This document shows positions 3,457 through 20,325 of a stretch of 34,572 nucleotides of DNA, piece after piece. Each line of letters begins with the position of its first letter. Positions within the stretch are counted from its first letter, which is position 1. The notes below the pieces were generated by a model. That model made no database searches, had not been told where the DNA came from, and worked only from the letters and a program-made list of their open reading frames with translations. The DNA lies in NCBI GenBank assembly GCA_020072965.1, contig JAIQFY010000059.1, positions 1 to 34,572 of the forward strand. Direction: 5' to 3'. The position numbers were made by a program, and so were the translations under genes. Origin of the DNA: Terriglobia bacterium. GTDB lineage: Bacteria; Acidobacteriota; Terriglobia; JAIQFV01.

Positions 3457-3485
3457 TTGACAAAGGGGAGCGAACGGGGGATAAT
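3457..3485 (+). promoter_or_regulatory. Predicted sigma70-type promoter for the EPS operon leader
   Basis: A perfect -35 hexamer TTGACA (3457-3462), a 17-base spacer, and a -10 hexamer GATAAT (3480-3485, five of six consensus bases). It points toward the EPS genes. Transcription would begin near 3491-3493, about 585 bases before the first start codon. This is the best promoter-like sequence noticed in the window. A second TTGACA at 3601 lacks a good -10 at the right distance. Confidence 0.6.
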
Positions 3486-3659
3486 ATAGAAGCGTTTAAC
3501 CCAGCCGCATTCGCTCTGAGAGCGAGTAATCTTTCATGTAAAGAGAGCCAAATCAGACCAGTAAATGAACCCGAAGGGAGTTGTGTCGATTGTAAAGATT
3601 TTGACACATTGTTGGGGTAATAATTCACATTGAAATACTTTCAAGGGAAGATGACAAAA

Positions 3660-3774
3660 CCCGGTCGACTCCCGCAAGAGAAGTAGCAGCACCTTGGAGG
3701 TTCACCGTGACTGGGAAACCCGGACAAGATCGGCAGGGAGTCCGATGTCCGGAGGTTTGGCTTACGAGACCGGG
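3660..3774 (+). ncRNA. Candidate structured RNA element in the EPS leader
   Basis: Outer strands CCCGGTC (3660-3666) and GACCGGG (3768-3774) are perfectly complementary and enclose about 100 bases. Inside is an extended hairpin at 3716-3758: AAAC pairs with GTTT, CCGGAC with GTCCGG, and ATCGG (3729-3733) with CCGAT (3742-3746). CTCCCG (3669-3674) could instead pair with CGGGAG (3771-3776), which would exclude the outer stem, so two folds are possible. The conserved cores of c-di-GMP-I, cobalamin, TPP, SAM and glycine riboswitches were not found. The fold was judged by eye only. Confidence 0.35.
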
Positions 3775-3929
3775 AGCTCAAATAGCTGTCCGTTCTTTGG
3801 GGGCTTGTTAATTGGGAATGGGTTTTGGGGATGTCTGAGGGTAGCGGCAGAACTATGAACTCATGCATCTTGAGCTGGCTGGGTCTACATCCGAGTGCAG
3901 AGCAGGCTTTTTGTTGTGTGTTCAATTAG

Positions 3930-3971
3930 GATCTGATCGCGAATTGGGGAGCGATTAAGATCAGTTTTTTT
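3930..3971 (+). terminator. Intrinsic terminator-like hairpin upstream of the EPS genes
   Basis: GATCT (3930-3934) pairs with AGATC (3958-3962) and ATCGC (3936-3940) with GCGAT (3951-3955). The bulges are one and two bases and the loop is ten bases. Seven T residues follow at 3965-3971. It lies downstream of the predicted promoter and about 105 bases before the first EPS start codon. It could end a leader transcript (attenuation) or simply insulate the operon from upstream transcription. Confidence 0.5.
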
Positions 3972-4076
3972 CCGTCCCATTAAACCAGCTTGTCCAAACC
4001 CAGGGAAGAGGTGTGCCAGCGGTGTTCCTGGGTCGTGTCAGGGGGCAAAAGTGTATTTTGCAAGTGGAGGCCGTGA

Positions 4077-4718
4077 GTGAAGCGGATTCTTTGGATTTTG
4101 ATTTTATTCTTAGTTTTTACAGGCGGGACGTCGGCCGGGGCCAAAAAGGAAAAGGACAACAAGACGAAAGGCAAGACCGACGCCTCGACACCGGCCCAGG
4201 CAGCCCCGGGATCCGGTCAGACAACGGAACCGGGCCAGGATTTCGTAATCGGACCGGAAGATACATTGGTTATTAATGTCTGGAAAGAGGCCGAACTTTC
4301 GACCACGGTGGTGGTTCGGCCCGATGGCAGGATTTCTCTTCCACTGATCAATGAAGTCCAGGCGAGCGGGTTAACGACAAAACAGCTGCAGGACCGGATT
4401 GCAGAGAGATTGAAAGATTTCATCGCTTCGCCTGTGGTGACCGTGATGGTCAAGGAGATCAAGAGCCAGTCGGTCACCATCATGGGCGAAGTGACAAGAA
4501 CAGGTGTATACCCTTTCGGCTCACCGATGACGGTTGTGGAGTTGATCGGGCGCGCCGGCGGATTTAAAGACTACGCGAAAACCAAAGGGATTCGAGTTCT
4601 GCGGAACGAAAATGGCCAGCAACTTCAGTTCCGGTTTAATTACAGGGATTACATCAAGGGGAAGAATCCTGAGCAGAACATCGTCTTGAAGAACGGTGAT
4701 GTCGTGATTGTTCCTTAG
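4077..4718 (+). CDS. Polysaccharide export protein (Wza-like, small XrtA-type)
   Basis: A 213-residue periplasmic/outer-membrane export protein that would form or dock to the exit channel for the polymer. Residues 1-22 are a Sec signal peptide (KR, a hydrophobic core, cleavage near TSA-GA). There is no lipobox cysteine, unlike Wza. Residues 55-125 fit the Poly_export domain (DFVIGPEDTLVINVW, RPDGRISLPL). Residues 130-175 fit one SLBB domain (VTIMGEVTRTGVYPF, VVELIGRAGGF). It is about half the length of Wza and matches the short export proteins of PEP-CTERM/XrtA loci (TIGR03027-like). The GTG start has GTGGAGG six bases upstream. It is the first gene of the operon, 73 bases ahead of the barrel gene. 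Confidence 0.9.
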   Translation: MKRILWILILFLVFTGGTSAGAKKEKDNKTKGKTDASTPAQAAPGSGQTTEPGQDFVIGPEDTLVINVWKEAELSTTVVVRPDGRISLPLINEVQASGLTTKQLQDRIAERLKDFIASPVVTVMVKEIKSQSVTIMGEVTRTGVYPFGSPMTVVELIGRAGGFKDYAKTKGIRVLRNENGQQLQFRFNYRDYIKGKNPEQNIVLKNGDVVIVP

Positions 4719-6176: not shown

Positions 6177-7721
6177 ATGAAAGATTTTTCCAGTTTTCGG
6201 ATTGAAGACTACGTCAGCATGTTCTGGAGACGGAAGTGGTACGCCATCGTTACCGCCGTTGTCATTACAGCGGCGGGAGTGCTTTATGCCCTTCACATGC
6301 CAGCCATCTATAGATCAGAAACTACGATTCTGGTTCAGGCCCAGGGCATCTCGGAGGGCTATGTGAAGCCGACCGATACCAGCCGGCCTGAAGACCGGCT
6401 GGCGGTGATCTCTCAGGAAATAAATAGCCGGAGCCTGCTGGAATCGATTATCAGGGACTTCAAACTTTTTGGCTATGGGCAGGACGGTACTATCTCGATG
6501 GACCAGGCCTTGTCCTGGATGAGGGGGCAAATAGAGATCAGGCTGGGCTCCGTCAATACCTTTACGGTGGCTTATTACGCGCGGCGTCCGACACTGGCCC
6601 GCGATGTGACCAAGCGTCTGGCGAACGACATGATGCGGACGAGGACCTCCTCGCGCGAGGAACAGGCAAACGTAACAGACCAGTTTCTTGATGATCAACT
6701 CCGCCAAACAGAAAGGGACCTGGCGACCCAGGAAACAAGATTAAAGATTTTTAAGACACAAAACCTGGGGGCACTTCCTGAACAGAACAGTGCCAACCTG
6801 GCGGCAATGAACGGACTGCACAACCAGCTCATTGCCAACGAGAGCGCCATTCAGCGGGCCCAGGACCAACAGTTAATTCTTGAACAGCGTCTGGTGGATG
6901 TGAAACGCATGGACTCGTTTTCTCAGGAGGTGATTTCGAAAGTCGGCGGCAAGAACGGATCCGGACCGGTTTCTTCCAATTCCCGGGCGGGTCTGCTGGC
7001 CCAGTTGGAATCAAAACGGAAAGACCTGGCGGATTTGTCCCTGAAGTATACCGACAAATTCCCCGACGTCGTCCGGCTCCGGCGTGAGGTCCAGGATTTG
7101 GAGCAACAGATCAGTCGACTTCCCGCACCGGTGGAAGGGGAGGGGGACTCCACGCAGGGAAGCACGAGCACAGCCTCTTCAGCGGGAACGGACAGCGATA
7201 CCTCTGCGGTCAAGTCTCAGTTGGCCATCCTAAAGAGGGATATTGCTGCCCGTCAAAAGGAACACGAGGATATCCTGCAGCAAATCAGAATCTACCAGGG
7301 TCGCCTGAATCTTTCGCCGCGCATCGAGCAGGAATTGCTCTCGATTAATCGCGACTATGAGGCCGCCAAGGAACACTATAGGAGTTTGCAGGACAAGAAG
7401 TTTAACGCTCAAGTCTCGGCGAATCTGGAAAAGAGCAATAAGAACGAGGTGTTCAAGGTGCTTGAAGAAGCAAACCTCCCGGAGACACCTGTGAAACCCA
7501 ACCGGCGCCAGGTGGCGCTTATGGGGTTGTTTGCGGGCGTCGTTTGTGGACTGGGATTGGTTTTCGGCATCGAGTTTCTTGATCCGACTTTGGGCGATGA
7601 AGCTATCGCGGGCGCCCAGTTGAAGCTGCCGGTCTTGATCTCACTCCCCGAGATAAGAGAAGACGACCGGGCGGTGACCAGGGCAGCGGAGCGGGGCACC
7701 CGGTTGGCCAGGCGTGCTTAG
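6177..7721 (+). CDS. Wzc/GNVR-type polysaccharide chain-length determinant (no kinase domain)
   Basis: A 514-residue inner-membrane co-polymerase that controls polymer length and links synthesis to export. It has a Wzz N-terminal domain, a transmembrane segment at about 21-39 (WYAIVTAVVITAAGVLYAL), and a large periplasmic coiled-coil region with repeated Q/E/R heptads (about 160-420). A GNVR-like end with PETPVKPNRR leads to a second transmembrane segment at about 446-465. A short cytoplasmic tail follows with no Walker motifs, so the kinase is encoded separately by the next gene. The length fits the XrtA chain-length subfamily (TIGR03007-like). The ribosome site is weak (AAGGATGAG). The Q- and S/T-rich stretch around 320-345 looks like a loop. 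Confidence 0.9.
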   Translation: MKDFSSFRIEDYVSMFWRRKWYAIVTAVVITAAGVLYALHMPAIYRSETTILVQAQGISEGYVKPTDTSRPEDRLAVISQEINSRSLLESIIRDFKLFGYGQDGTISMDQALSWMRGQIEIRLGSVNTFTVAYYARRPTLARDVTKRLANDMMRTRTSSREEQANVTDQFLDDQLRQTERDLATQETRLKIFKTQNLGALPEQNSANLAAMNGLHNQLIANESAIQRAQDQQLILEQRLVDVKRMDSFSQEVISKVGGKNGSGPVSSNSRAGLLAQLESKRKDLADLSLKYTDKFPDVVRLRREVQDLEQQISRLPAPVEGEGDSTQGSTSTASSAGTDSDTSAVKSQLAILKRDIAARQKEHEDILQQIRIYQGRLNLSPRIEQELLSINRDYEAAKEHYRSLQDKKFNAQVSANLEKSNKNEVFKVLEEANLPETPVKPNRRQVALMGLFAGVVCGLGLVFGIEFLDPTLGDEAIAGAQLKLPVLISLPEIREDDRAVTRAAERGTRLARRA

Positions 7722-17489: not shown

Positions 17490-18878
17490 GTGACAGCAAG
17501 GTGGATAAGACAGGCGCTCCTGCGCCTGGATGATTACAGGAATGGCGACAAACGTCTGAGTTACCTTCCGGAGGTGGAACGGGAATGTGCGCTTCCCCGG
17601 AAAGAGTTGCTCTCGCGGCAGTGGGACCGGCTCGCCAAAACCCTTGATCTGGCATACGAGCAGGTTCCGTTTTACAGGAAACGATTCCAGGAGGCTGGAA
17701 TCACTCCGAAATCCATCCAGGCCCCCTCTGATCTTCCAAAGATTCCATTTCTCACCCGCGAAGATTTGAGAAACCATCAAAGCGAATTGATGAATTCATC
17801 AATAAGACCAGAAGACTTGATTGAAACCGCCACGGGAGGAACAACCGATTCCCCGGTTCATCTGTCCCTCGATCGTGAATGCCTTGCCAGGCGGCGGGCC
17901 TGCACCCTCCATTTCCAGCAATGGTGGGGAGCAGGCCTGGGAGACCGCGTTGCATCTCTGTGGGGGGCCGAGCAGGACTATCCCAGGACCGAATCTTTCA
18001 AGAGCCGGGTGCGTGGATGGGCGCTCGGAAGGGCACTCTATTTGCAAAGTTCGTATCTCAACGATGGCATTATGCAGGGCTACTACAAGAAACTGGTGGA
18101 GTTTCGTCCTAAGACCATTCAGGCCTACCCAACGCCTTTGTACCTGTTTGCGTGTTTTCTTGAAAAGAACAATCTCCGACTCCCGATCCACTCCATCAAT
18201 GTGGCGGCGGAGTATTTATACGGTTATCAGCGGGAGAAAATCGAATCGGTCTTCTCCACCCGGATCTACAATTGGTACGGGGCCAGGGAAGTGGGACATA
18301 TTGCAACCGAATGCAGTATCCATCAGGGGATGCATTTGAACTGTTATGGACTCTATGTCGAGGCAGTCAAAGATGGAAAGGTAGTGGAAAACGAACCTGG
18401 CGACCTGATCTTCACCGATCTTTTTAATAGAGCGATGCCCATCATTCGATACAGAATCGGAGATCTGGGAGTCATCTCGGCTCGGGCGTGCGCTTGTGGT
18501 TCGGCCCTTCCGCTGCTCGAGGAATTGACGGGCCGGAGCACGGATGCGTTTTGGAAGAGGGACGGATCCTTCACTGCCGGTGCCTCGTTTTGTGGCCGGA
18601 TCATTAAGGAATGCCAGGGAATCAAGCAACTTCAGATCATTCAGAAGGACTTTGAGCGTTTTCAGTTGAATGTTGTGAAGGGAGCAAGTTTCCGGGAAGA
18701 GGAGGTCGAAGAGCTAAAGCAGCGAATCGGCGATTTCTTGCATGCACAATTGACATTTGACGTCGTTTTTGTGGATGAGGTCTTGCCGGAGCCATCAGGG
18801 AAAGTGATTTTCTGCAAATCGGAGGTCGGGCGCGCTTCGATTCCGGATCATGAGGGGGGCCATACCACCTCAGTTTGA
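17490..18878 (+). CDS. PaaK/CapK-like adenylate-forming enzyme (first of two)
   Basis: A 462-residue ANL-superfamily enzyme of the phenylacetate-CoA ligase/CapK group, which activates a carboxylic acid with ATP. The P-loop is ATGGTTDSP (114-122), then YGAREVGHIATEC (263-275), YRIGDLG (321-327), and a C-terminal PEPSGK with the expected catalytic-lysine context. C275-x2-H278 and C334-x-C336 could form a zinc site (inference). The substrate is unknown. Members in capsule and EPS loci are usually annotated CapK without proven function; an acyl or amino-acyl decoration of the sugar is plausible. The GTG start has GAGGTGG just upstream. It is followed after 76 bases by a paralogue. Confidence 0.85.
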   Translation: MTARWIRQALLRLDDYRNGDKRLSYLPEVERECALPRKELLSRQWDRLAKTLDLAYEQVPFYRKRFQEAGITPKSIQAPSDLPKIPFLTREDLRNHQSELMNSSIRPEDLIETATGGTTDSPVHLSLDRECLARRRACTLHFQQWWGAGLGDRVASLWGAEQDYPRTESFKSRVRGWALGRALYLQSSYLNDGIMQGYYKKLVEFRPKTIQAYPTPLYLFACFLEKNNLRLPIHSINVAAEYLYGYQREKIESVFSTRIYNWYGAREVGHIATECSIHQGMHLNCYGLYVEAVKDGKVVENEPGDLIFTDLFNRAMPIIRYRIGDLGVISARACACGSALPLLEELTGRSTDAFWKRDGSFTAGASFCGRIIKECQGIKQLQIIQKDFERFQLNVVKGASFREEEVEELKQRIGDFLHAQLTFDVVFVDEVLPEPSGKVIFCKSEVGRASIPDHEGGHTTSV

Positions 18879-18954
18879 CGGCAGGAGGCGCCGGGGAGTT
18901 TCCACCTCTCTACGATCCAATTGTCTCGTGCAGTCACAGAAACAGGAGCCCATG

Positions 18955-20325
18955 ATGGATATTTATGCCGGGATCGTCAGGTATGCCGTTCACCCGCTCT
19001 GGGTGCTCAAGGATGGCAAATGGTCACTGTTCAGGTACCTGCGGGAATTTGAGGAATTTCAATACCGGGACCCACAGACCATCAAAGAATCGCAGTGGAA
19101 GAAGTTAAACCGATTGATGAGTCACGCCTATGAAAATTGCCCGTTCTACCGCTCACGGTTTGACGCGGCGGGCCTGAAACCGTCAAGCATACAAGATCCA
19201 TCCGACTTCCGGAGAATTCCCTTCCTCACGAAGAAAGACATCCAGGAAAACCTGCCGGCCCTGGTCGCCACTAATTACAATCTCAACGACCTTGTCCCCA
19301 ACAAGACCGGAGGCTCAACGGGCTCTCCTCTGCACTACTACCACGACCGCGAAAGAATCATTTCCATGGAGGCTTCAGCGATCCGCCATGACCGATGGAC
19401 CGGCTATAAGGTTGGTGACAAGATGGCCGGGATCTGGGGGAGCCGGACTGATTTGTCCGGGGTGCGGGGATGGAAAGGGAGGATCCAGAGACTGCTTTTT
19501 AGAAGCGGTGCAATCCTGGACAGTTCTTCGATTACTGATGAAAGGCTGGCCCATTTTGTCGAGGTGTTGCGGGAATTCAAGCCTAAGAGCATTTTGGCCT
19601 ATGCGAATTCGGTTTATGTGTTTGCCCAGTACTGCAAGGAACACGGAGTGAGGGACATCCACCCGGCGTCGATCATCACCTCGGCCGAGGTGCTGCACGA
19701 TCACGAACGGGTCCTGATCGAAGAGGTATTTCGCTGCAAGGTTTTCAACCGGTATGGTTGTCGCGAGGTGTCGGTCATCGCCAGCGAATGCAGCGGGCAT
19801 AGCGGTCTGCACATCAACGCTGACACACTTTATGTGGAATTCGTGGATGACAACGGCCAGGCGGTTTCTCCGGGACAGCAGGGGAACATCATCATCACCG
19901 ACCTGCTCAATTTCGGGATGCCTTTCTTGCGCTACAAGATTGAGGATATCGGCAGTCCGTCCGAGACGGTGTGCCCGTGCGGACGAACGCTCCCGCTGAT
20001 GCAGATGGTGGCCGGGCGAACCACGGACTTCATCGTGACCCCTGACGGCAAGCGCGTGTCGGGCGCGGCCCTGACCATCTACCTGATCTCCAATGTTCCG
20101 GGGATCCGCCAGGCTCAAATCATCCAGGATGTGCTCGATCATGTCACGTTTAAGATCGTTCCCGGTCCAGAATTCAAGGACAGTGGGCTGGCCCTTTTGA
20201 AACAGAAGGTGCCCGAGTTTTTTGGAGAGGGAATGCGCTACGATATCACGTACGTGGATTCGATTCCCAAAGAGCCGTCGGGGAAGTACCGCTTCACCAT
20301 CTCAAAGATTGGGAGTCGGGGCTGA
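18955..20325 (+). CDS. PaaK/CapK-like adenylate-forming enzyme (second of two)
   Basis: A 456-residue paralogue of the preceding gene, alignable end to end (for example NCPFYRSRFDAAGLKPSSIQ here and QVPFYRKRFQEAGITPKSIQ there). The P-loop TGGSTGSP (118-125) is closer to the family consensus than in the first copy. YGCREV (267-272), YKIEDIG (327-333), C279-x2-H282, C340-x-C342 and a C-terminal KEPSGKYRF are present. The open frame reaches back to 18850. AGGAG at 18944-18948 favours the second of two adjacent ATGs (18955) over 18952. The pair may activate two substrates or divide activation and transfer. It ends at a repeat-rich gap. Confidence 0.85.
   Translation: MDIYAGIVRYAVHPLWVLKDGKWSLFRYLREFEEFQYRDPQTIKESQWKKLNRLMSHAYENCPFYRSRFDAAGLKPSSIQDPSDFRRIPFLTKKDIQENLPALVATNYNLNDLVPNKTGGSTGSPLHYYHDRERIISMEASAIRHDRWTGYKVGDKMAGIWGSRTDLSGVRGWKGRIQRLLFRSGAILDSSSITDERLAHFVEVLREFKPKSILAYANSVYVFAQYCKEHGVRDIHPASIITSAEVLHDHERVLIEEVFRCKVFNRYGCREVSVIASECSGHSGLHINADTLYVEFVDDNGQAVSPGQQGNIIITDLLNFGMPFLRYKIEDIGSPSETVCPCGRTLPLMQMVAGRTTDFIVTPDGKRVSGAALTIYLISNVPGIRQAQIIQDVLDHVTFKIVPGPEFKDSGLALLKQKVPEFFGEGMRYDITYVDSIPKEPSGKYRFTISKIGSRG

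Follow-up and report, generated by a model that had tools for sequence, protein, structure and literature searches.

The XrtA/PEP-CTERM-type EPS operon of a Terriglobia bacterium raises the question of what lies in the long leader between its promoter and its first gene, and whether that leader decides if the operon is transcribed at all. The operon occupies ~25 kb of the window (the whole 34,572-nt stretch of DNA that was analysed) from position 4077 onward. It encodes an export protein, a PEP-CTERM-associated outer membrane protein, a chain-length determinant, a tyrosine kinase and an EpsB-type transferase, together with deacetylases, glycosyltransferases and an amidotransferase. Two neighbouring genes for DVU_1553/PaaK-like AMP-dependent ligases are also found within it, at 17490-20325.

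An earlier sequence-only reading had placed a near-consensus promoter about 585 bases ahead of the first EPS gene, followed by a multi-stem element (3660-3774) with two mutually exclusive outer pairings and by a hairpin with a T7 tract (3930-3971). Rfam describes no control element for these leaders. The features discussed below are collected in Table 1. Comparison within the genus was made with one sister genome (G001), and the order is represented by three genomes in all. The window genome and G001 are 92-95% alike, so that the test of the multi-stem element between them is low in power.

Table 1. Features of the EPS leader and its surroundings in the window.
Feature	Position	Strand	Remarks
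IS200-like (Y1) transposase gene	1537-2211	minus	
Promoter TTGACA-17-GATAAT	3457-3485	plus	11/12 consensus matches; kept in relative; recurs
Block with 81% identity to the C76 leader copy (C76:7598-7763)	3509-3673	plus	Own-genome search
CTCTGAGA box	3514-3521	plus	28 nt after the -10 in this leader and in two leaders of the matrix-protein gene
Longest substitution-free stretch in the comparison with G001	3557-3643	plus	EPS leader pair; contains the shared element
Shared element GTGTCRAYYGTRAAGNNTTTNNCACA	3583-3608	plus	In all leaders
Multi-stem element of the sequence-only reading	3655-3780	plus	Structure unsupported
GGTAGCG, partial likeness to the RfaH ops core	3840-3846	plus	Within GGGTAGCGG
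Intrinsic terminator, bulged stem and T7	3931-3971	plus	Shuffles, conserved fold, relative
First EPS gene, XrtA/PEP-CTERM-type polysaccharide export protein (TIGR03027-like, Poly_export/SLBB)	4077-4718	plus	

Promoter and terminator of the EPS leader

The EPS leader carries a real promoter and a real intrinsic terminator. TTGACA-17-GATAAT is the sole promoter of its kind between 2500 and 5000, where shuffled sequences give 1.3, and its occurrence alone is not above chance. It is kept in G001, with GATAAT changed to AATAAT, and the similar TTGACA-17-AAGAAT recurs in both genomes before a second gene, which encodes a matrix protein. At the matrix-protein gene, identity between the genomes is ~30-60% upstream of the promoter and ~60-90% from the promoter on, with some lower stretches, and this rise in conservation supports a transcription start there. 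Conservation in G001 and recurrence before the matrix-protein gene bear out the near-consensus promoter that had been proposed. Transcription of the EPS leader probably starts near 3492; the first gene starts with GTG at 4077, which agrees with the gap of ~585 nt that had been estimated.

The terminator consists of a stem at 3931-3963 and a T7 tract at 3965-3971. In a scan for hairpins followed by T6 or more, it reached -11.6 kcal/mol, and none of 200 dinucleotide-shuffled versions of the 585-nt leader matched that strength. A simpler hairpin scanner left it unlisted, probably because of the bulged stem and a loop above its length limit. In G001 the stem is kept and the loop is altered: of the seven substitutions found there, six leave the pairs untouched and one gives a G-U pair, and the T7 tract is intact. 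The conserved-fold test gave z -2.6 (P 0.02). Shuffles and conservation in G001 thus support the earlier claim of a leader with a promoter and a T7 hairpin ahead of an XrtA-type EPS operon, and, as far as can be judged from the DNA, conditional termination remains the most economical reading of this leader.

Promoter and terminator also bracket a discrete unit, and 3492-3971 could instead be an independent small RNA that ends at its own terminator, the EPS operon starting elsewhere. Against this, a scan detected no promoter-like site between 3971 and 4077, and the module described below leads elsewhere towards genes without a detected terminator. A free-standing small RNA is accordingly considered very unlikely.

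The proposed multi-stem sensor

In the sequence-only reading, 3660-3774 was the sensor: a riboswitch-like element whose alternative pairings govern the terminator. The order of promoter, element, terminator and gene fits this, and the pairings are present in the sequence, with ACCCGG at ~3659 and ~3718 each able to pair with CCGGG near 3770. The mutually exclusive outer pairings are therefore possible on paper, but the fold of 3660-3774 is no better than that of shuffled sequences (z -0.33), and the pairwise conserved-fold test of 3655-3780 gave P 0.16. The stems had been expected to be conserved or to covary in relatives; in G001, substitutions fall in three pairs, of which only one still pairs, the other two being broken; no pair shows double compensation. 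The element was not seen in related leaders, similarity to which ends near 3673, and it has neither an Rfam match nor a homologue beyond the genus. As the sensor, this region is without backing from folding, covariation or recurrence, and the part that does recur lies upstream of it, within 3457-3643. The multi-stem element is thus unsupported, in a two-genome test with little power to exclude it, and the riboswitch-like reading is given little probability.

A leader module shared with matrix-protein and kinase genes

A search of the leader against its own genome returned two other significant places, on contigs C76 and C22. The C76 copy lies ~500-600 nt ahead of a histidine kinase gene (HisKA_3/HATPase_c), and the genes following it on that strand encode a NarL-type response regulator and a large secreted protein. 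The other copy, C22:1490-1748, lies ~300 nt ahead of a secreted-protein gene that runs off its contig. The G001 orthologue of this protein (contig C25, at least 1317 aa, likewise running off the contig) has the same leader, and is a giant secreted matrix protein with bacterial Ig and cadherin-like domains. In both genomes the matrix-protein gene is divergent from phosphopantetheinyl-transferase-like and NRPS-like genes, as judged by eye from the translations.

Besides the promoter, the module has two parts. The first is a box with the consensus CYCTGAGA, which lies exactly 28 nt past the -10 of TTGACA-17-RAKAAT in three leaders (window EPS, C22 and C25); in the G001 EPS leader, one base has been lost from the spacer between -10 and box. 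The second is the shared element, which is followed in most leaders by a GGTATTAGTTC-like tail. Positions 3583-3607 can fold into a hairpin of 7 bp whose loop is 11 nt long, and as DNA they constitute an imperfect inverted repeat. A four-way conserved-fold test of this hairpin gave z -2.63 (P 0.027); in C76 and C25 the stem carries mismatches that are not compensated. The longer stems surrounding the hairpin did not pass the substitution-placement test, and folds of the C22 and C25 leaders gave P 0.07 (5' part) and P 0.71 (3' part) in the conserved-fold test. RNA covariation between the window and C76, in the form of compensatory changes, was striking by eye but was rejected, as the substitution-placement test gave P ~0.07 and broken pairs were as many as expected by chance.

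No promoter could be recognised ahead of the box in the C76 copy, and a promoter-like site follows the element; this copy may therefore be decayed or rewired. No full orthologue of the C76 kinase was found in G001, which yielded only a partial match of 47%.

A sequence model of the five leaders, run over the three genomes of the order, found five places with E < 1e-33 and next matches at E 0.08 or worse. The five places are the model's own training sequences, and the informative part of this result is that nothing else scores. One weak match (E 0.08) in the window's genome, at C1:269279-269423, just before the gene of a putative exported protein, is probably due to chance. Beyond the genus, no homologues of the leader were found in 60 relatives or at 28 EPS loci of class relatives. 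In a search of 299 class genomes, perfect occurrences of the core pattern were confined to the two genomes from this genus, and class genomes outside the genus gave matches with two to three mismatches only, near the level of a reversed-pattern control. A slightly shorter pattern had four scattered exact matches in a wider collection of genome contigs, about as many as expected by chance, and none in viral contigs. As far as can be seen, the shared element appears to be lineage-specific. An origin of the repeated block as a mobile element was rejected: the copies are few, all point the same way towards genes, and both genomes keep two of the three.

Possible recognition of the module as RNA or DNA

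The explanation preferred here, tentatively and with somewhat less than even confidence, is that the leader combines a 5' module recognised by a trans-acting factor, most likely on the nascent RNA, with a conditional terminator before the EPS operon. Transcription would be initiated constitutively near 3492 by the near-consensus promoter. The first ~150 nt would then form a module common to the EPS operon, the giant Ig/cadherin-like protein and, in one genome, the copy at the kinase/regulator pair. This module would serve as a putative recognition site for the factor, most likely through the hairpin 3583-3607 of the nascent RNA. The terminator would stop EPS transcripts unless overridden, and the ~25-kb operon would be expressed only with the shared signal on.

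The terminator, the conservation of the promoter and the recurrence of the module are direct observations, those on the module coming from two genomes and four independent leaders. Its recurrence before functionally related genes, the fixed spacing of the box and the conserved-fold result for the hairpin count for the explanation above; the mismatches in the hairpin stem, the C76 copy's want of a promoter ahead of its box and the position of the UpxY-family gene described below count against it. We infer that RNA is recognised and not DNA, that read-through is conditional and that the factor exists. A scan found no terminator in the C22 leader and none comparable in the C76 leader; the shared module thus cannot act via a leader terminator alone. 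The recurring module is probably a small shared on/off control.

The main rival is a DNA operator, in which the imperfect inverted repeat TGTCRATTGTRAAGATTTTGACA would be bound by a transcription factor, possibly of the NarL type as near C76. This factor would control the genes for EPS, the matrix protein and the kinase, and the terminator would be incidental. The arms of the repeat are present in the window and C22, and the C76 copy, in which the promoter-like site follows the element, has a gene for a NarL-type regulator downstream of it. In C76 and C25, however, the arms are broken while the centre GTRAAG is invariant, and the C76 kinase has no full orthologue in the sister genome, which still has the element. 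Moreover, the site lies downstream of the start, and its distance from the -10 varies by ~60 nt (about 98, 158 and 151 nt), as would be expected of a transcribed element more than of a promoter-phased operator. An RNA element is favoured, and the operator is regarded as rather unlikely.

Alternatively, a translated leader peptide (MSIVKILTQ-like) might begin at the element and control the downstream gene through its translation. Its frame (GTG TCG ATT GTA AAG) is open in all leaders, a purine-rich stretch precedes the GTG and third positions differ twice as often as others. The codon differences, however, are 12 non-synonymous against 6 synonymous, counted over few independent sequences, the stops are at differing places and the Shine-Dalgarno spacing is short, which makes such a peptide highly improbable.

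A bolder form of the preferred explanation, recognition of the nascent RNA, would be that a new RNA leader element, made up of the promoter-proximal box and the hairpin with its conserved 11-nt loop, couples the exosortase-type EPS operon and the giant matrix proteins of one lineage via elongation control. This is distinctly doubtful. More generally, a leader shared by the EPS operon, the giant matrix protein and perhaps a sensor kinase would mark them as a small biofilm regulon of a lineage about which little is known, and it would add to the few known cases in which polysaccharide operons are controlled during elongation through their leaders.

Comparison with known leader systems

Rfam 15 covariance models were run on the window and the related leaders, and no family matched. 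This covers c-di-GMP switches and EAR to the extent that Rfam contains them. The sole weak match, to mir-204 on the minus strand, is a chance one. This agrees with the earlier statement that no known regulatory core was recognisable, which had overlooked the 7-nt ops-like GGTAGCG at 3840, itself a partial match only. The EAR RNA of the Bacillus eps operon provides RNA-based termination control in an EPS operon; it differs from the present leader in its position within the operon and in being a larger structured RNA.

GGTAGCG, which we take to be the centre of the RfaH ops site, is present in both the EPS and C76 leaders as part of GGGTAGCGG (window 3839-3847, and ~7480-7490 of the examined C76 stretch, minus strand). 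GGGTAGCGG occurs nowhere else on either strand of the 109 kb examined and is absent from C22 and C25. The likeness of the EPS leader to ops is limited to the 7-nt core, ~8 of 12 positions of the consensus. The ops-like core was noticed after the fact and may serve as a lead only. RfaH is weak against intrinsic terminators (PMC7819879).

LoaP leaders, those of the dfn and mln operons of Bacillus velezensis, contain a hairpin common to the two operons and a terminator (PMC12691694). The present case resembles them in that at least two long operons have a common 5' leader hairpin and an intrinsic terminator precedes the first gene, here in the EPS leader only. Unlike in the LoaP system, no NusG paralogue adjoins the EPS operon. 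UNCG tetramers are present in the leaders; from a listing of these tetramers alone, no UNCG-tetraloop hairpin was identified, and none was noticed as a shared hairpin loop.

UpxY prevents premature termination in the 5' leaders of capsule operons in Bacteroides fragilis (PMC7819879, PMC7593976). The EPS leader is likewise predicted to contain a point of premature termination, and a UpxY-family NusG paralogue is encoded in the window's genome, so that this type of machinery is present. In contrast to the upxY genes, which sit in their target operons, neither of the only two NusG-domain genes of the genome, those for NusG and the UpxY-family paralogue (C44 and C5), lies in the window. The UpxY-family gene is found at ~48.7 kb of contig C5, and another EPS cluster follows it within a few kb. 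By analogy, the best reading is that the EPS leader would work like LoaP, UpxY and EAR leaders, and membership of none of these systems is claimed.

Two other kinds of control were considered and rejected. CsrA, a candidate for control of the EPS leader, is absent from the genome. For sigma-54/PrsR control, as for PEP-CTERM genes, there is no -24/-12 site better than chance, and matches to the PrsR family are all below the cut-off.

Repeats at the start of the window

Positions 1-2866 hold several copies of a repeat of 140-310 bases, which one stretch of the sister genome matches many times. They come with TTGCCCTG/CAAGGGCAA hairpins around the IS200-like (Y1) transposase gene, and together the repeats and the transposase look like a REP/RAYT array.
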